A stretch of 58,545 bases of DNA, from positions 1 through 58,545 of the forward strand of contig NZ_SMRQ01000005.1 in the NCBI RefSeq assembly GCF_004359965.1, written 5' to 3'. The notes under the pieces are model-generated. The model had not been told where the DNA came from. It did no database searches and worked only from the letters and a program-made list of their open reading frames with translations. Every line of letters starts with the position of its first letter. The stretch's first letter is position 1. The translations under genes were made by a program, and so were the position numbers. Origin of the DNA: Cognatilysobacter segetis. Lineage in GTDB: Bacteria; Pseudomonadota; Gammaproteobacteria; Xanthomonadales; Xanthomonadaceae. This document shows, piece by piece, positions 10,225 to 43,952 of this stretch.

Positions 10225-10695
10225 TCACGGCGACCCGCCGATACGCAGCGCGTCGCTCAACGTCTGGTTGAAGTTCAGGTTCTGCAACAGGGTCAGCGTA
10301 TTCACGGCCGTGTGAAGGGTCGTCGACGCCTGGATCTGCTGGCCGTCCAGCGCGTTCTGGATCACCAGCGACCCGACCCCCGGGTGCAGCGACGTGCCGC
10401 CGCCGACCTGGATCGTCTGGCCCTGCGTCAGCGCGGAGAGCTGCTGCGCCTGGTCGGCGGTCATCCGCGACAGGTCGGGGATGTCGATCCGCTGCGACAC
10501 GATCAGCTGGCCGTTGACGGCGACCGTGCGCTCGAGGCCGAACGCGATCGACATGCCGCCGGGCAGCGCGTAGCCACCGCGCAGTGCGTCGAGGTGTTCG
10601 ACGGGGACGGGCGTGCCCAGGTCGCCGGCCCGGGCGGGCGTCGCGAACACGAGCACGGTGAAGAGGAAAGGGGCGAGCAGGGCGGGCAGGCGCAT
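10225..10695 (-). CDS. FapE-like secreted amyloid-system protein
   Basis: The ATG at 10695 overlaps the upstream stop in TGATG and gives 156 residues with a signal peptide ending near ATPARA. After it comes a segment ending LDALRGG (residues 35-41) that fits a double-glycine leader: V-12, L-7, L-4, G-2, G-1. Near the C-terminus IQN-x6-IQAST (112-125) matches segments in the two upstream secreted proteins. Position between a FapD-like peptidase and a FapF-like pore supports a FapE role as extracellular or periplasmic accessory subunit. Sequence identity to FapE could not be tested. Confidence 0.65.
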   Translation of the reverse strand: MRLPALLAPFLFTVLVFATPARAGDLGTPVPVEHLDALRGGYALPGGMSIAFGLERTVAVNGQLIVSQRIDIPDLSRMTADQAQQLSALTQGQTIQVGGGTSLHPGVGSLVIQNALDGQQIQASTTLHTAVNTLTLLQNLNFNQTLSDALRIGGSP

Positions 10696-11378
10696 CAGAA
10701 GTCTCCCGGTCCACGTTTCGGCATGACGATGTTCTGCAACCCCTGGCGCTGGATGCCGACGTCCAGCGGCGCCGGCGGCGCGGTGCGCCAGTCGGCGGGG
10801 TGGTTGAACTGGGCCAGCTCGCGGCGGTTGTGCACCACGAAGAGCAGGCGGTTGTCCCACAGGCGTTCGAACTGGCGTCGCGGCAGCGCGCGCGTACCGC
10901 GGGCCGGGTCGCCCACCAGCACGCGATCGCCGCGCAGGCCCTTCACCACCACGAAGTGGCGATAGCCCTTGTCGTTGAGCAGCACGATGGCCGGCAGGCC
11001 TTCCTCGGCGAGCTTCTCGAGCGGCAGCTTGAAGCCGTCGGCCTGGAAGCCCTTCGACGCGAGGTAGCGCCGCATGTCGAGCAGCGAGAAGCCTTCGCGA
11101 CGGATCTTCTGCACGTTGCCCTTGGCGAACATGTCGCGGAAGACGTCGGCTTCCGACACCGGCAGGCCGTACTGGTACGTCAGCAGCGTGGCGGTGGCCG
11201 CGGAGCCGCAGCTGAAGTCGAACCGCTGGCGCACGGTCGTCCTGAAGCGCGCTTCCTTGAGGCTGGTCACCGGCACCGAGTAGGTCGCGCCCGGTGCGCG
11301 CAACTCGAGGTTGCTGGCCGCCGTCGTGGCGGGCGCCCCGCAGGCGAGCAGGAGCAGCAGCGGCAGGATCGGCCTCAT
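10695..11378 (-). CDS. fapD: FapD-like C39 family cysteine peptidase
   Basis: This 227-residue protein carries a complete C39 papain-like triad: Cys57 in RQRFDFSCGSAATA, His141 in GYRHFVVVKG and Asp157 in VLVGDP. Unlike bacteriocin exporters it has no ABC transporter domains. It has an N-terminal export signal in which LLAC at residues 10-13 could serve as a lipobox, so it may be a lipoprotein; otherwise it is a soluble periplasmic enzyme. It overlaps its neighbours by 4 bp upstream and 1 bp downstream. FapD of the Fap system has the same design, and two operon partners carry double-glycine-like motifs that it could cut (inference). Confidence 0.87.
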   Translation of the reverse strand: MRPILPLLLLLACGAPATTAASNLELRAPGATYSVPVTSLKEARFRTTVRQRFDFSCGSAATATLLTYQYGLPVSEADVFRDMFAKGNVQKIRREGFSLLDMRRYLASKGFQADGFKLPLEKLAEEGLPAIVLLNDKGYRHFVVVKGLRGDRVLVGDPARGTRALPRRQFERLWDNRLLFVVHNRRELAQFNHPADWRTAPPAPLDVGIQRQGLQNIVMPKRGPGDF

Positions 11379-11803
11379 GGCGTGGGCGAGAACAGCACGC
11401 TGACCACGGTGCTGTTCTGGATCAGCACGTTGTTGCCGCTGTTCTGGATCACCGTCGACAGGCCCGCGGCGTTGCCGAACGCGCCGCCATCCATGAGGTT
11501 GCCGCCGCTGATCGTATTGATGGCGGCATTGCCGTCGACGTTGCCGTTGACGTCGGATACGTTGGTGATCGTGGTCTTGGTCTCGGTGCCGCCGCGCATG
11601 TCGTCCAGCGCGTCGCCGGGCACGGCGGTGCCGAGCGTGGCGTCGCGGGTGACCGCATCATCCGCGGGGACGCCGGCGTCGACCGTCGGCACGGGCACGT
11701 CGACGGCCACGAACGGCACCGATGGAAGCGACTGCGCCGCAGCGGGAAGCGCGAGCAGGTTGATGGCGGCGATCGCGAGGACCGCGGGCGTGGACATCCG
11801 CAT
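11375..11803 (-). CDS. Small secreted protein of the fap-like operon, candidate minor subunit
   Basis: The ATG at 11803 has AGGGAGA six bases before it and gives 142 residues with a signal peptide ending LPAAAQ. A Val/Pro/Asp-rich stretch leads to LDDMRGG (66-72), another double-glycine-like motif with V-12, L-7, M-4. The remaining 70 residues are Asn/Gly-rich and end in TVIQNSGNNVLIQNSTVV, which recalls amyloid repeats of the curlin type (Q-x-x-G-N-N) and matches the C-termini of two operon partners. It overlaps the C39 peptidase start in ATGA. It may act as a nucleator or minor fibre subunit. No known family was recognised. Confidence 0.7.
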   Translation of the reverse strand: MRMSTPAVLAIAAINLLALPAAAQSLPSVPFVAVDVPVPTVDAGVPADDAVTRDATLGTAVPGDALDDMRGGTETKTTITNVSDVNGNVDGNAAINTISGGNLMDGGAFGNAAGLSTVIQNSGNNVLIQNSTVVSVLFSPTP

Positions 11804-11924
11804 GGGCTGTCTCCCTGTGGGAACGTGTCCACCGGTCGGCGGACGGAACCGGCGGGGCCGAAGCCCCGCCGGTGACAAGGAACCGAAGCGATGCGCCGCC
11901 GGAGCGGCGCATCCACGCCCGGTC

Positions 11925-12821
11925 TCAGTGGCCCAGGTTCAGGTTGGCCTGCACCGTCACGCCCTGCTGGATCAGCGACATCGCACCGCTGTTCTGGCCG
12001 ACCACCATGATGCCGGCGGCCGCATTGGACGAGCCGTTCATCTGGTTGGACATGTCGAACGCACCCGCGTCGGCCGAGGCCACGCCGCCGATGCCGCCCG
12101 CGGCGCCGTCGCCGCCCGCCGCCGAGGCGGTGCTGGTCCCCGCGCCCGAGCCCGCGCCGCCCGTGTTCCCGCCGCCCGTGCCCGCGCCGCCCGTGTTCCC
12201 GCCGCCCGCGCCGCCGGCGCCGCCGACCGACGCGGTGGTGTCGCCGCCACCGACGGCGCTGTTATCGGAGTCGTCGCTGCTGGTGCCGCCGGCGGCATAC
12301 GAGCCGCCGTCGTCGCCGCCGCGCGCACCGCGGGCGGAGCCGCCGCGGCCGTTGGCGCCTTCGGCCTCACCGCCGGAGCCGTAGCCCTTGCCATACGAGT
12401 CCGAGTACGCACTGCCGCCACGGCCGCCACGGCCGCCGTTGGCGTCGCCCTCGTTATAGGCGCTGTTGCCGACATAGCCGAAGCCGTTGCCGCTCACCGT
12501 GCCGTCCAGCGCGGTGGTGGCGACGACCGTGTTCACCGTCGTCGAGTTGTCGTTGAACGAGTCGTGCAGCGACTGGTCGGTGTTGAAGGAGTGATGCGCC
12601 GACATGTCGGTGTTGAACGAGTCGTTCGCCGAGTTGTCGGAGTTGTCGTTGGTGGAGTTGTCGGAATAGTCGTTCTGCGAGTCGTTCATCGAGTTGTCGG
12701 TGTTGAACGACCGGTGGGCCGAGTTGTCCGTGTTGAACGAATCGGTCGCGTCCTGGGCGAAGGCCGGCGCGGCGAAGCCGAAGGCCACGGCGATCGAAGC
12801 GGCAATGAGTGTCTTGCGCAT
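11925..12821 (-). CDS. Repeat-rich secreted protein, candidate major amyloid subunit
   Basis: The ATG at 12821 has AGGAGA seven bases upstream and gives 298 residues with a signal peptide ending APAFAQ. Residues 28-97 are seven decapeptides in strict register, best copies SFNTDNSAHR, SFNTDNSMND, SFNTDMSAHH and SFNTDQSLHD. Residues 126-250 are a Gly/Ser/Ala-rich low-complexity region with repeated GGNTGGAG, and the C-terminus has GQNSGAMSLIQQGVTV, shared with the next protein. It is first in the fap-like operon, where Pseudomonas has fapA-C. A secreted fibre-forming role is inferred. An open frame continues upstream of the ATG but has no signal sequence or ribosome site. Confidence 0.75.
   Translation of the reverse strand: MRKTLIAASIAVAFGFAAPAFAQDATDSFNTDNSAHRSFNTDNSMNDSQNDYSDNSTNDNSDNSANDSFNTDMSAHHSFNTDQSLHDSFNDNSTTVNTVVATTALDGTVSGNGFGYVGNSAYNEGDANGGRGGRGGSAYSDSYGKGYGSGGEAEGANGRGGSARGARGGDDGGSYAAGGTSSDDSDNSAVGGGDTTASVGGAGGAGGGNTGGAGTGGGNTGGAGSGAGTSTASAAGGDGAAGGIGGVASADAGAFDMSNQMNGSSNAAAGIMVVGQNSGAMSLIQQGVTVQANLNLGH
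12531..12740 (-). repeat. Seven 30-bp coding repeats (decapeptide SFNTDxSxxx)
   Basis: Within the first fap-like gene, seven consecutive 10-residue units keep exact register from residue 28 to 97. Units 1, 2, 5 and 6 keep SFNTD and a Ser at position 7; units 3, 4 and 7 are degenerate but still Asn/Asp/Ser-rich. This is a protein-level repeat, not a CRISPR array, since there are no unique spacers. Confidence 0.85.
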
Positions 12822-13234
12822 GTGCGGTTCTCCTGGAGGTAGCGAAAAGCTGGGGAGGAAAGCGCCCTTCGCGGACGCAACGCCCTCCTCGCATATCGCG
12901 TGCCAACACGTGACCGTCGTCACAAAAGGCCGAGCTTGCCGCCAAATGAACGTTTCCGCGCGCGCAGCTGAATCGTTGCGTTCGTCCTTGCGTCGCGCAG
13001 CGGGAAATCGCTGCGCCGCTTCGGACAAATTTGCCGGCCGGCAGCGGTACGAACGCCGAATGCGCCGACCAACGACACGCAACACGCGCGCAGGCCGCTG
13101 AAATGCCGGACGCAGGCGCAGCGACGCACGTGTGCGGAAGACGGTCGCTTACGAACAACGGCAGTCGGCATGCTTTCGACTGCCTGCGGTGCATGTCCGG
13201 TCGCGCGCGACCGTCAGTCCGGTGGCCGGGTCTC
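12822..13234. other. Promoter region of the fap-like operon
   Basis: This 413-bp gap separates the fap-like operon from the DUF45 peptidase gene, both read on the minus strand. It holds a CRP/Clp-like palindrome at 12909-12924. On the minus strand GATATG (12892-12897) is the only weak -10 candidate near it. Frames open across the gap look like random high-GC extensions; no RNA gene was seen. Confidence 0.45.
12909..12924. promoter_or_regulatory. CRP/Clp-like operator upstream of the fap-like operon
   Basis: CGTGA-CCGTCG-TCACA matches TGTGA-N6-TCACA at 9 of 10 positions, with one perfect half. It ends about 88 bp before the first ATG of the operon. With the 8480 site this suggests shared control of amyloid and polysaccharide operons by Clp and hence c-di-GMP; this is inference. 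Confidence 0.55.
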
Positions 13235-40213: not shown

Positions 40214-41083
40214 ATGCACAGCGAACGACAGGGCAGCCTCGCCTGCGTGGGGCTCGGAATGATGCTCGGCGCGCACCTGACGCCGCGCTCGCGCCACACC
40301 ATCGAGCACGCCGACGTCGTGTTCGTGCTCGCGTCCGACGGCCTGGTCGAGCGTTGGGTCGAGGAGATGCATCCCGACGTCCGCAGCCTCCAGCCCTACT
40401 ACTCGGAGGGCAGGTCGCGGCGCGCGACGTACGCGGAGATGGTCGGCGCGATCGTCGCCGAGGTCCGCGCGGGCCGACGCGTCTGCGCGGCGTTCTACGG
40501 TCATCCGGGCGTGTTCGCGCAGGTCGCGCACGAGGCGATCGAACGGGTGCGCGGCGAGGGCATCGACGCCCGGATGGAGCCCGGCATCTCCGCCGAGGAC
40601 TGCCTCTACGCCGACATCGGCATCGACCCCGGCCGCACCGGCTGCCAGCACTTCGAGGCGACGCAGTTCCTGTGCTGCGATCGCCAGGTCGACACCGCGG
40701 CGTGGCTCGTGCTGTGGCAGGTGGCGTCGGTCGGAGATCGCAGCTTCGCCCGCAATGCGACCGGCCGTGGCTATCGCCAGCTGCTGGTCGACAAGCTCGC
40801 GCGCGTCTACGCGCCGCAGTACGAAGTGGTGCTCTATGAAGCGCCCACGATCGCGACCGGTTCGCCGCGCATCGAGCGCCTGCCGCTGGGACGGCTCGCG
40901 GACGCGCGACTGAACATGCATACGACGCTGGCGGTCGGGCCCGCGCGGCCGCTGCGCGTCGACCTCGCCATGCGGGCCGCGCTCGATGCGCTCGATGCGC
41001 TGGACGCGGGTCCGTCGCCGCGCCCACGCGTCCGGCCGCGCCTGGAGCTGGTCCGCGACGTAAACCGCGAGCGCGATGACTGA
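40214..41083 (+). CDS. Split-borosin peptide backbone alpha-N-methyltransferase (SonM/OphMA family)
   Basis: This 289-residue protein is a tetrapyrrole-methylase-fold SAM enzyme of the borosin type. It has the landmarks CVGLGM, IEHADVVF, FYGHPGVF, MEPGISAEDCLYADIGIDP, QHFEATQFL and LWQVA. Tyr63, Arg69, Tyr73 and Tyr95 keep the exact spacing of the OphMA catalytic residues Y66, R72, Y76 and Y98. OphMA is fused to its substrate; this protein lacks a core extension and so is of the split type, like SonM of Shewanella. It should methylate backbone amides of the peptide encoded at 41823. Its last 8 bp overlap the GNAT gene. Confidence 0.88.
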   Translation: MHSERQGSLACVGLGMMLGAHLTPRSRHTIEHADVVFVLASDGLVERWVEEMHPDVRSLQPYYSEGRSRRATYAEMVGAIVAEVRAGRRVCAAFYGHPGVFAQVAHEAIERVRGEGIDARMEPGISAEDCLYADIGIDPGRTGCQHFEATQFLCCDRQVDTAAWLVLWQVASVGDRSFARNATGRGYRQLLVDKLARVYAPQYEVVLYEAPTIATGSPRIERLPLGRLADARLNMHTTLAVGPARPLRVDLAMRAALDALDALDAGPSPRPRVRPRLELVRDVNRERDD

Positions 41084-41756
41084 CGTTGCCCATCCGTCGG
41101 CTCGCTCGACCGGCGGCTCGCGGGCCATCGAAACGGCCGCGTCCAGCCGTGACGCGGAACTGCACGCGGCCACGCTCAGCCTCCGGCTGCTGGACGAGGG
41201 TGACCGCGCGCTTTATCACGCGCTGCATTCCAGTCGCGAGGTGATGCGCGCCATCGGTCCGCCGCTCGACGCCGACGCGATCGACGCGCGTTTCGGACGC
41301 GTGCTGCGGCACAACCGCAGTCAACGGCCGGGGCATCGCGCCTGGGCCGTCATACCGCGCGACGCGGCGAAGCCGGTGGGGCTGACGGCATTGCTGCGGG
41401 ACGGCGTGCGTGCCGAGTTCGGGATCATGTTGCTGCCCGCGGCGCAGCGGCGTGGAATCGCCGGCGCCACGATCGCCGCGCTGCTGCCGCATGCGTTCGG
41501 GGACATGCGGCTCATGCACGTCGACGCTTCGCGCCCCGATGGCCGATTCGTCCACGTCATCGACGCGATGTTCGCGCCGTTCGGATTCCGCCGCGTTCCG
41601 GGGCTTCGACCCGGCGAAGTCGGCTGGACCCTGTCGCGCGACAACGCGACCTGGACTTCGACCCGCCTGCAAGCCTGCGATCCGGGCGGTGGACCGACAG
41701 ACGGTCATGACCGGCGGCCGGCGGGCGAACCGGCTCGTCCGCCGCCTCGTTCCTGA
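41076..41756 (+). CDS. GNAT family N-acetyltransferase in the borosin locus
   Basis: This 226-residue protein has a GNAT fold of the RimJ/RimL type: LSLRLLDEGDRALYHALH at the start of the domain, then the acetyl-CoA loop QRRGIAG after strand EFGIMLLP. The first 30 and last 30 residues are low-complexity extensions. An 8-bp overlap with the methyltransferase and its position before the precursor gene suggest that it acts in the same pathway, perhaps acetylating the peptide's N-terminus or the product for self-protection (inference). Confidence 0.85.
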   Translation: MTDVAHPSARSTGGSRAIETAASSRDAELHAATLSLRLLDEGDRALYHALHSSREVMRAIGPPLDADAIDARFGRVLRHNRSQRPGHRAWAVIPRDAAKPVGLTALLRDGVRAEFGIMLLPAAQRRGIAGATIAALLPHAFGDMRLMHVDASRPDGRFVHVIDAMFAPFGFRRVPGLRPGEVGWTLSRDNATWTSTRLQACDPGGGPTDGHDRRPAGEPARPPPRS

Positions 41757-41810
41757 CGTACTCTCGGGCGGCGCGGCCGATGACGGCCGCGCCTATCGTG
41801 TGGACGACCC

Positions 41811-41820
41811 AGGGGGGGGG
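41811..41820 (+). promoter_or_regulatory. Homopolymeric Shine-Dalgarno (A plus nine G) of the precursor gene
   Basis: The ribosome-binding site for the ATG at 41823 is A followed by nine G, only two bases from the start codon. Slippage during replication would change the spacing and the amount of precursor peptide. It could also be a sequencing artefact in run length. Confidence 0.55.
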
Positions 41821-41822
41821 AT

Positions 41823-42080
41823 ATGTCTCGCATCATCGAAGTGCTGGTCCAAGCCGGCGAAAGCGGCGCGCTCGACGGGGAGTCGGCGTTTCTCGAACTA
41901 CCGGTGGCGATGCGCCGTGCCTTGCGGCTCGGGGACACGGCTGCGGTCGCCACGCTCGCCGGCGTCGAGCCCGTGCGTTGCTGTCTGGTGGCGTCGCCCG
42001 ACAACGAACCGGAGCCGGCCGAAGCCCCCGCCGAGCCCGATTCCGACGTGCCGGAGTCGCCGGACGCGGCTGCGGCCTGA
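41823..42080 (+). CDS. Putative split-borosin precursor peptide
   Basis: This 85-residue peptide has a helical N-terminal part (MSRIIEVLVQAGESGAL, then LPVAMRRALRLGDTAAV) resembling the leader/binding domain of SonA-type substrates. Next comes a short hydrophobic run CCLVAS at residues 53-58, where SonA has its methylated core, and finally a Pro/Glu/Asp/Ala tail. Leu55, Val56 and Ala57 are the likely methylated positions by analogy. It follows the methyltransferase and GNAT genes. The assignment rests on context and pattern, since precursors vary widely; no protease gene is adjacent. Confidence 0.7.
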   Translation: MSRIIEVLVQAGESGALDGESAFLELPVAMRRALRLGDTAAVATLAGVEPVRCCLVASPDNEPEPAEAPAEPDSDVPESPDAAAA

Positions 42081-42088
42081 GGCTATGC

Positions 42089-42116
42089 TTGGGGCCCCGC
42101 GGGTGCGGGGCCCCAA
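42089..42116. other. Strong GC hairpin between precursor and GGDEF genes
   Basis: TTGGGGCCCCGC pairs perfectly with GCGGGGCCCCAA around a GGGT loop, giving a 12-bp stem. It begins 9 bp after the precursor stop. There is no T-tract, so it may stabilise the precursor mRNA 3' end or attenuate read-through into the cyclase gene, not act as a classical terminator. Confidence 0.75.
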
Positions 42117-42143: not shown

Positions 42144-43952
42144 ATGCGGTGGCGCTCGAGTTTGGCGATGGTGTGCCTGGTGGCCATGTCGGCGATCAGC
42201 CCGACGTGCATCGCCTCCGTTTCGAAATTCAGCGACGAGCTCGCGCGCGTCGAGCGCCTGCGTTCCTCCGACACGGTCGCGTTCAACGCGGGCCTGTCGC
42301 GTCTTGAGGCGAACGCGGCCAAGCTATCGCCGCGCGAATCGCGTTGGCTGCGCTACCTGCAGGATTACCGGCGCGTCATCCAGGGCGAGTACGGCGAAGC
42401 GGTGGGCGACGCGGTCGCGTTGTATGACCAGGCTCCCGAGACCGACATCAAGTTCCGCGCCGGGTTGCTGATTGCCAACGCCGCGGCGATCACCCGCGAC
42501 TTCTCCCTCGGCCTCCGTTACCTCGAGCAGTCGCTCGCGCTCCAGCCGCGCATCTCGGACGCCGGCGTTCGCAATTACGGATACACGGTCGCAGCGATCC
42601 TCTACAACCAGTACGGCCAGTACGAGCTCGGGCTGCAGAACGCGCGTGCGCTCGCCGAAGCGCGGCCCGAACCGCGCAGCGCATGTTTCGCCCAGCAACT
42701 GCAGATCGAAGCGCTGCATGGGCTCGGGCGCCCGATCGACGAAACGGCCGACGTGCAAGCCGCGATTTCCCGGTGCACCGAAGCGCACGAGCCGATCGCG
42801 ACCAACCTCATCCGCAGCATCCTCGCGCAGCGGTGGGCGCAGGAAGGCAAGCAGCGCCAGGCCATCGCGTTGCTCGATGCGAGCCTGCCGGAGGTGGAGG
42901 CCACGGGCTATACCCGGCTGATCGGCGAGATCCACGGCCTGCTCGCGCAGCTCAGGCTCGACGTCGGCGACCTCGCTGCCGCGGAGCGCGATGCGCGCGC
43001 GGTCGCGCGGATCAAGGGGCAGGACGCGCGTTGGCTGCCGAATGTCACGGCGCACCATGTCCTCTACGAACTCGCACTCAAGCGCGGTGACTATCGAACC
43101 GCGCTTGACGAATACCGGCAATACGCGGACGCCGACAAGGCACGCCTGGATGACGTCAAGGCGCGCGAGTACGCGTTCCAGCTCAGCCGGCACGAGCTCA
43201 ACCAGAAGAACCAGTCGATCCTGCTGCTGCAGAGCCAGAACCGGCTGCTGCAACTCAAGCAACAGGCCGCGACCGCGTCCGCCTGGAACACGCGCCTCGC
43301 GATCGCGCTGCTTCTTGTGCTCGTCGCCTCGGTCGGTTACTGGGGCTGGCGCGCGCGCCGCATGCACGGCTCGCTCCGCACGCTGGCGGAAACGGACGGG
43401 CTGACCGGGCTGGCGAATCGCCGCCACTTCCGCGCGAGTTCGGAGGCGGTGCTCACGCAGTGCGCGCAGCGGCAGCGGCCGGTGGCCGTGCTGCTGTTCG
43501 ACCTGGACCACTTCAAGCAGATCAACGACCAGTGCGGCCACGCGTCGGGGGACTGGGTGCTGCGGGAGGTCGCGCGGGTCGGGCGGCTGCATTGCCGCGA
43601 GACCGACCTGTTCGGCCGGATCGGCGGCGAGGAGTTCGCGATGGCGCTGATGGACTGCGAAGTCCACGAGGCGGTCGGCATCGCCGAGGCCTGCCGTCGC
43701 GCGATCGCCTCCATCGATGCCGAGGCCGCCGGCTGCTGCCTGCCGGTCTCGGCCAGCGTGGGCGTGGTGGGCACGCGCCAGGTCGGCTACGACTACGAGT
43801 CGCTGATCGCGCACGCGGACGCGGCGATGTACCGCTCGAAGGTGGGCGGGCGCAACCGCGTCACGCTGTACGAGCCGCCCGCGCTGCCCGAGGCCGGCCA
43901 GCCCGTCCTGCTCGACCAGCGCAACGCCGAGGCAATGCTCCGCCAGTACTGA
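42144..43952 (+). CDS. TPR-containing membrane diguanylate cyclase (GGDEF)
   Basis: This 602-residue protein has a signal peptide (to about residue 24), a periplasmic TPR-like region (about 40-380), one transmembrane helix (LAIALLLVLVASVGYWGW) and a cytoplasmic GGDEF domain. The active site reads GGEEF at 494-498 and is preceded by an intact inhibitory I-site RETD at 485-488, five residues upstream. It should make c-di-GMP in response to a periplasmic signal and be product-inhibited. c-di-GMP in this group acts on Clp, whose candidate sites lie upstream of the amyloid and polysaccharide operons. Confidence 0.93.
   Translation: MRWRSSLAMVCLVAMSAISPTCIASVSKFSDELARVERLRSSDTVAFNAGLSRLEANAAKLSPRESRWLRYLQDYRRVIQGEYGEAVGDAVALYDQAPETDIKFRAGLLIANAAAITRDFSLGLRYLEQSLALQPRISDAGVRNYGYTVAAILYNQYGQYELGLQNARALAEARPEPRSACFAQQLQIEALHGLGRPIDETADVQAAISRCTEAHEPIATNLIRSILAQRWAQEGKQRQAIALLDASLPEVEATGYTRLIGEIHGLLAQLRLDVGDLAAAERDARAVARIKGQDARWLPNVTAHHVLYELALKRGDYRTALDEYRQYADADKARLDDVKAREYAFQLSRHELNQKNQSILLLQSQNRLLQLKQQAATASAWNTRLAIALLLVLVASVGYWGWRARRMHGSLRTLAETDGLTGLANRRHFRASSEAVLTQCAQRQRPVAVLLFDLDHFKQINDQCGHASGDWVLREVARVGRLHCRETDLFGRIGGEEFAMALMDCEVHEAVGIAEACRRAIASIDAEAAGCCLPVSASVGVVGTRQVGYDYESLIAHADAAMYRSKVGGRNRVTLYEPPALPEAGQPVLLDQRNAEAMLRQY

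Follow-up and report, generated by a model that had tools for sequence, protein, structure and literature searches.

A split borosin locus of Cognatilysobacter segetis with a predicted sensor-diguanylate cyclase gene in its cassette

We analyzed a 58,545-nucleotide stretch of the genome of Cognatilysobacter segetis (the window) and conclude with high confidence that it holds a split (type IV-like) borosin pathway embedded in a conserved gene cassette that includes a sensor gene; this confidence covers the pathway and the cassette and does not extend to the signalling role discussed below. Its product is very probably a small peptide that a dedicated enzyme methylates on the backbone. The locus is of a kind already known, and the assignment, which draws on sequence homology, is firm; the value of the locus lies in the sensor partner. 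The genes are as follows:

40214–41083, + strand: borosin-type N-methyltransferase gene (SonM-like), 289 aa
41076–41756, + strand: GNAT acetyltransferase gene, 226 aa (PF13302)
41823–42080, + strand: putative precursor peptide gene, 85 aa, with a family profile that matches SonA
42144–43952, + strand: predicted membrane sensor-diguanylate cyclase gene, 602 aa, with a GGDEF domain

The open reading frames (ORFs) of the enzyme and the GNAT overlap by 8 nt, a 66-nt gap precedes the 85-aa ORF, and the sensor gene starts 63 nt past the latter; enzyme and precursor are separate genes within one cluster, as in split borosins. The original prediction had described the 289-aa enzyme, the GNAT, and the 85-aa peptide, and this description is borne out here; its reading as a split borosin is supported by the homology of the enzyme and the precursor and was incomplete in overlooking the adjacent sensor/GGDEF gene at 42144–43952.

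The methyltransferase and its precursor peptide

When compared with all PDB sequences using phmmer, the enzyme finds its best match in SonM (7ltc; E 5e-70), followed by the fungal fused borosin enzymes 6mjf (4.9e-43), 5n0o (6.6e-41), and MroMA (2.6e-36), whereas the best cobalamin-type match, a precorrin methylase, reaches an E-value of only 4.4e-7. Grouping with the cobalamin methylases, one of the outcomes that the original prediction had named as speaking against it, was thus not observed. Pfam places the enzyme in PF00590 (E 5.7e-22), and NCBIfam returned only tetrapyrrole and YabN models, all far below their cut-offs. The enzyme is 47% identical to SonM, and its residues 5–236 align nearly collinearly with residues 7–238 of the OphM-type PDB chain 5n0o. 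The residues named in the original prediction, Tyr63, Arg69, Tyr73, and Tyr95, are present and invariant across all 17 alignment rows, among them SonM; in SonM numbering, the first three correspond to Y58, R67, and Y71, with a Tyr–Arg spacing of six residues in the window enzyme and three more in SonM, and Tyr95 is the Y of YGHPG. Y58, R67, and Y71 of SonM stabilize the deprotonated amide (PMC8429565), and the active-site Tyr/Arg/Tyr set of type IV split borosins is present in the window enzyme. It carries no fused core peptide, again as predicted, and its identity as a borosin N-methyltransferase is confirmed at the level of sequence comparison. The enzyme had no matches in phage records and 13 in plasmid records, all below 60% identity.

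Taken alone, the 85-aa peptide has no significant match among PDB sequences or in Pfam and NCBIfam. A scan of named genomes for relatives produced 28 loci, of which 22 carry the label Lysobacter, Luteimonas, Luteibacter, or Silanimonas, and some of the 28 are the same places as loci from the 395-genome search described below; 13 ORFs in these loci, some of which are near-identical, are related to the window peptide (phmmer; E 1.8e-6 to 0.0034). With a profile of 27 precursors, the window's being the first, searched against 177,635 PDB sequences, seven of the nine matches are SonA chains (E 0.0025–0.012). The best match, to a SonA construct with a change at position 65, is the only one printed as aligned into the core, where the conserved Cys is paired with SonA Y62 and the three residues after it with L63, V64, and position 65; the other SonA alignment printed ends before the core. 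Against a precursor with a SonA match of its own (1.3e-10), profile–profile comparison gave an E-value of 2e-5 and a probability of 77%. Homology of the leader to the borosin-binding domain of SonA is thus detected through the family profile, the match of the window peptide alone not being significant, and homology of the 85-aa ORF family to SonA is supported, in agreement with the original prediction of a SonA-like precursor. The AlphaFold model of the precursor (pLDDT 76) contains helices at residues 3–14, 20–23, 28–36, and 39–46, and the top three Foldseek matches of this model were SonA chains, but with E-values of 3.3–4.0, which are not significant. The peptide can be divided as follows:

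41823–41975, + strand: helical leader, borosin-binding-domain-like, residues 1–51 (putative extent; model and SonA profile alignment)
41976–41999, + strand: putative core RCCLVASP, residues 52–59 (conserved hydrophobic columns, SonA alignment, and a fourfold repeat in a relative)
42000–42077, + strand: acidic proline-rich tail, residues 60–85, composition conserved (precursor alignment)

Conservation of the core was assessed across 106 distinct precursor rows, with counts restricted to the rows filled in each column. Column 52 is M in 68 of 103 rows; column 53 is mixed hydrophobic, with M and F being the commonest; the Cys54 column is C in 86 of 105; columns 55–58 are M/L/A, I/V/L, variable, and A/P/T, respectively; column 59 is P in 73 of 105; and column 60 is D/E in 85 of 105, beyond which lies the acidic proline-rich tail. 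The window core deviates from this nine-residue motif at positions 52 (R), 53 (C), and 58 (S). A hydrophobic core thus follows the leader, as in type IV systems, and the stretch 53–58, which the original prediction had singled out, is conserved among the relatives' precursors. SonM methylates SonA at L63 and I65 (PMC8429565), and since L55 and A57 align with these targets, they are the predicted sites of backbone methylation.

The precursor of one relative, genome G022 (L152, L169), contains four copies of the motif, TLSCLVFTPE, TYFCWVATPE, TYFCAVNTPE, and PYFCGVLTPE (L169:4902-5336), and these repeated cores, which mark the likely product unit, are the best sequence evidence for its location. 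The gene order at this multi-core locus is GNAT, precursor, enzyme, ABC exporter with a C39 peptidase domain, and HlyD, and no sensor gene was found there (L152/L169); the arrangement suggests that, in at least that species, short products exit the cell. The end of a Luteibacter precursor (L013:6821-7123) repeats an ALMP-like motif (ALMPPFS, ALMPAFS, ALMAPIS) and is possibly also multi-core.

A cassette shared with a sensor gene

The product of the gene behind the precursor is predicted to be a membrane sensor with an outward (periplasmic-type) helical domain and an intact GGEEF motif. Its GGDEF domain spans residues 415–572 (Pfam; E 1.3e-39) and carries the diguanylate cyclase signature GGEEF together with the I-site RETD; among 22 aligned homologues, GGEEF is present in all 22, the I-site R in 15, and the D in 19. 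Hydrophobic segments at 5–27 and 379–403 flank the helical domain, the N-terminus is signal-peptide-like by eye, and the model of the protein is helical from 28 to 416, with a mean pLDDT of 88. Among the 50 Foldseek matches listed for this model, there are only GGDEF-domain entries. Pfam detects TPR_12 in five of the 22 homologues and no TPR in the window sensor; we read the helical-repeat domain as TPR-like.

To place the locus in its family, we searched 395 genomes of that family with the enzyme. The best match was of the window kind in 103 genomes, a long frame (676 to 1874 aa; 46–52% identity) in 26, and a 42% homologue in three, with the class boundary set at our own choice of a best E-value of at most about 1e-80. 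The following tally covers 100 of the 105 listed unfused-class rows, leaving out G227, G365, G049, and the second copies in G020 and G160. A precursor lies downstream of the enzyme in 97 of the 100 loci, a tally in which the precursor profile took seeds from 10 of the 100 loci and the precursor match at 5 is only weak (E 0.0014–0.007); the three exceptions are L132 (short contig end), L152 (where it is upstream), and L158. A sensor homologue likewise lies downstream on the same strand in 97 of the 100, the others being L041 (contig end), L152 (multi-core), and L179. Under stricter settings (E < 1e-10, a 2-kb limit, and enough flank), 70 of 72 loci have the sensor downstream and 6 of 69 have it upstream. 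When the 395 genomes were searched with the N-terminal domain of the sensor (E ≤ 1e-10), 101 had both enzyme and sensor, 2 the enzyme only, 5 the sensor only, and 287 neither. Three of the five sensor-only genomes have a long-frame enzyme; the sensor homologues of the other two, L230:4459-6561 (G164) and L231:2899-4686 (G177), one of which is on a short contig, had no adjoining enzyme or precursor that we could find, and there is a weak GNAT match near L230. Because the species are related, a Fisher value cannot be read as a probability; the co-occurrence is plain despite this kinship. With 44 GGDEF domains in the 2.94-Mb genome of the window's own species, we estimate the chance adjacency of a GGDEF gene at about 2%. 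The sensor/GGDEF gene belongs to the cassette.

The GNAT (PF13302; E 2.6e-13) is a frequent partner that is less constant than the sensor, being found within 1 kb of 76 of the 100 enzyme genes as opposed to 97 of 100: it is upstream in 71 and in the window's position, between enzyme and precursor, in 5. No second homologue of the window GNAT was found in its own genome at E ≤ 1e-3. Variations on the cassette include two or three precursor genes around one enzyme (L007, L009, L013, L042, L109, and L140) and extra copies of the sensor-cyclase, some paired with precursors, around one enzyme (L026, L153, L140, and L003). At the three loci with the 42% enzyme homologue (L078, L079, and L080, in G134, G280, and G270), no match to the precursor, GNAT, or sensor was found nearby.

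In the long-frame class, a GGDEF protein carries the enzyme at its C-terminus as a fusion (L028, L029, L030, L066–L077, L081, and L082). The 14 loci tallied, out of 31 listed long-frame rows (46–52% identity), all have a GGDEF match in the ORF of the enzyme itself and a precursor-like (SonA/LigA-like) ORF upstream, and none has a GNAT. Pfam finds GGDEF plus TP_methylase in the proteins of L028 and L029, and one of their precursors weakly matches LigA.

The association with a sensor extends to the vicinity of SonM. At L210, where the enzyme is 93% identical to SonM, the enzyme gene is followed by a SonA-like precursor and then directly by a 596-aa GGDEF protein (E 3.6e-38) with TPR matches below the Pfam cut-offs. 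Among 20 loci, which we selected from the rows of the search that gave L210 and which are not a random sample, a cyclase or kinase homologue stands beside the enzyme on the same strand in 18, is divergent in 1 (L222), and is absent from 1 (L229); a precursor match is present at 15. The partner is a histidine kinase in four of those loci, with TPR, HisKA, and HATPase detected by Pfam in L219, L225, and L226 and the fourth identified by phmmer. Outside the family, a cyclase or kinase partner is present at three of eight class-level loci (L160, L161, and L162), and none was found with four cyclase and kinase queries at the other five, more distant ones, so that the sensor link pertains to the SonM-like clade rather than to all split borosins. 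Short ORFs also lie directly upstream of two distant enzyme homologues (L164:5730-5942 and L165:3504-3737), with membrane-transporter-like genes behind them (by eye); these are perhaps other split-borosin types. In a 55-row tree, the window enzyme pairs with a row of the same genus within a clade (100/97) that includes Shewanella-type and related genomes, six of which have acidic-tailed precursors, five of the six with Cys; the three rows closest to SonM group in a separate clade (99/98), and the seven fused rows in one clade (99/89). Branches are very long for four rows, including one in the clade of the window enzyme.

A scan for promoters and terminators gave nothing above shuffled sequences. 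Between the precursor and the sensor genes lies a perfect 12-bp GC hairpin without a T-run (42089–42116), a possible processing or attenuation element. Stems of at least 8 bp occur in 15 of 65 precursor–sensor gaps (the window included) versus 3 of 65 enzyme–precursor gaps, and at 15 of 65 the hairpin is not a general feature of the cassette.

No exporter or maturation protease was noticed by eye among the larger ORFs at 38.6–44.3 kb, four of whose proteins were covered by Pfam, which leaves the route of the peptide to an outward-facing sensor without a candidate. A C39-family peptidase ORF of 227 aa (10695–11378, − strand) was dropped as a cassette partner: it lies about 29 kb away, among small repeat-rich ORFs in a region (10225–13085, − strand) that, judged by eye, presumably resembles a functional-amyloid (Fap-like) locus. 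One idea in the field is that shewasin cleaves a Shewanella borosin. A search of the window's own genome for pepsin homologues (PF00026) found none, but the positive control likewise matched in no genome, so the search is uninformative.

Proposed function and its alternatives

From the homology of both partners, the catalytic residues, and the conserved core, we infer a reaction in which the SonM-like enzyme would bind the separate 85-aa precursor by its helical leader and use SAM to methylate backbone amides of the short hydrophobic, Cys-containing core, most likely at L55 and A57; the GNAT perhaps acetylates the peptide. The membrane GGEEF protein would then couple the peptide to c-di-GMP signalling, one option being that it is the receptor of an exported or membrane-permeant N-methylated peptide. 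That the product of this locus is an N-methylated signal linked to c-di-GMP is possible, and we put it forward tentatively. More generally, SonM-like split borosins may serve peptide signalling, the methylated core being stable and membrane-permeant and read by the helical-repeat domain of a co-encoded cyclase or hybrid histidine kinase, a proposal that we hold with the same reserve. The near-invariant sensor partner, which occurs alongside the enzyme in 101 genomes of the family and is present at the locus nearest SonM, turns this into a concrete, testable hypothesis with c-di-GMP or a phosphorelay as the output, and through that partner, the function of bacterial borosins becomes directly testable. 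If the hypothesis is true, bacterial borosins would regulate c-di-GMP or phosphorelays in the manner of pheromones, and SonM–SonA offers a ready test case.

The same genes admit other accounts. An antibiotic-like or a metal- or redox-binding product, with the cyclase merely controlling the timing of its production, would be in line with the nematocidal activity of the fungal borosin omphalotin A (PMC11285071) and with the conserved core Cys, which could bind metal; yet neither the GNAT nor any exporter seen is as constant as the sensor, which the locus nearest SonM has too, and we judge such a product somewhat unlikely. Unlikely to a greater degree is a methylated full-length precursor that is never cut or exported and acts in the cytoplasm as a regulator, directly on the cyclase or on an enzyme–cyclase fusion. 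That account gains from the cassette in the window, where no exporter or protease was recognized by eye and the precursor has no obvious signal peptide (also by eye), and from the long-frame class, in which enzyme and cyclase form a single protein, but the four repeated cores of one relative, with its C39-peptidase exporter and HlyD, speak for the release of short products, and the helical domain of the sensor has a hydrophobic segment on either side, as a periplasmic domain would.

An ordinary tetrapyrrole methylase beside a small ORF that is a chance frame would explain why Pfam assigns the enzyme to PF00590 and why the peptide alone matches nothing significant, but we regard it as exceedingly improbable: SonM is ahead of the best cobalamin methylase by more than 60 orders of magnitude in E-value, a PDB ranking on which we rejected the former, and the peptide family, homologous to SonA, accompanies the enzyme at 97 of 100 loci, a conservation on which, together with that of the core, we rejected the latter.

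Relation to known systems

In the limited set of literature searched, borosins were not found together with diguanylate, c-di-GMP, or Lysobacter, the combination with GGDEF occurred in a single paper, and that with histidine kinase yielded only an unrelated passage. Borosin types 0–XI are given in PMC11395268, which traces types V–X and the GGDEF-bearing type to Imani 2022 and Cho 2022, with Lee 2024 as a further source. Because the legend of its Fig. 1 abbreviates GGDEF, a GGDEF-bearing borosin architecture has already been published, and we dropped the GGDEF fusion as a novelty; the long-frame fused class is probably that published type. The window differs from it, as far as that legend describes it, in that the enzyme and the GGDEF protein are encoded by separate genes. 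With OphMA and the fungal fused borosins, the window shares the homology of the enzyme (about 7e-41), whereas its enzyme has no fused core. RRNPP-type TPR peptide receptors are cytoplasmic; a TPR domain that reads a peptide is the idea in common, whereas the window protein is a predicted membrane cyclase with outward helical repeats.

The closest described system is the type IV split borosin SonM–SonA of Shewanella oneidensis (PMC8429565; PDB 7LTC and others). The window differs from it in that its enzyme belongs to another clade (100/97), with acidic-tailed precursors, and has three fewer residues between Tyr63 and Arg69; in its GNAT gene; and in its shorter leader, with the core at 52–59 rather than 62–71 and a Cys in the core. 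Shared between the two are a separate enzyme, a short precursor, a helical leader, a hydrophobic core, and the catalytic Tyr/Arg/Tyr, and a sensor-cyclase gene follows the precursor both in the window and at L210, the locus whose enzyme is 93% identical to SonM.
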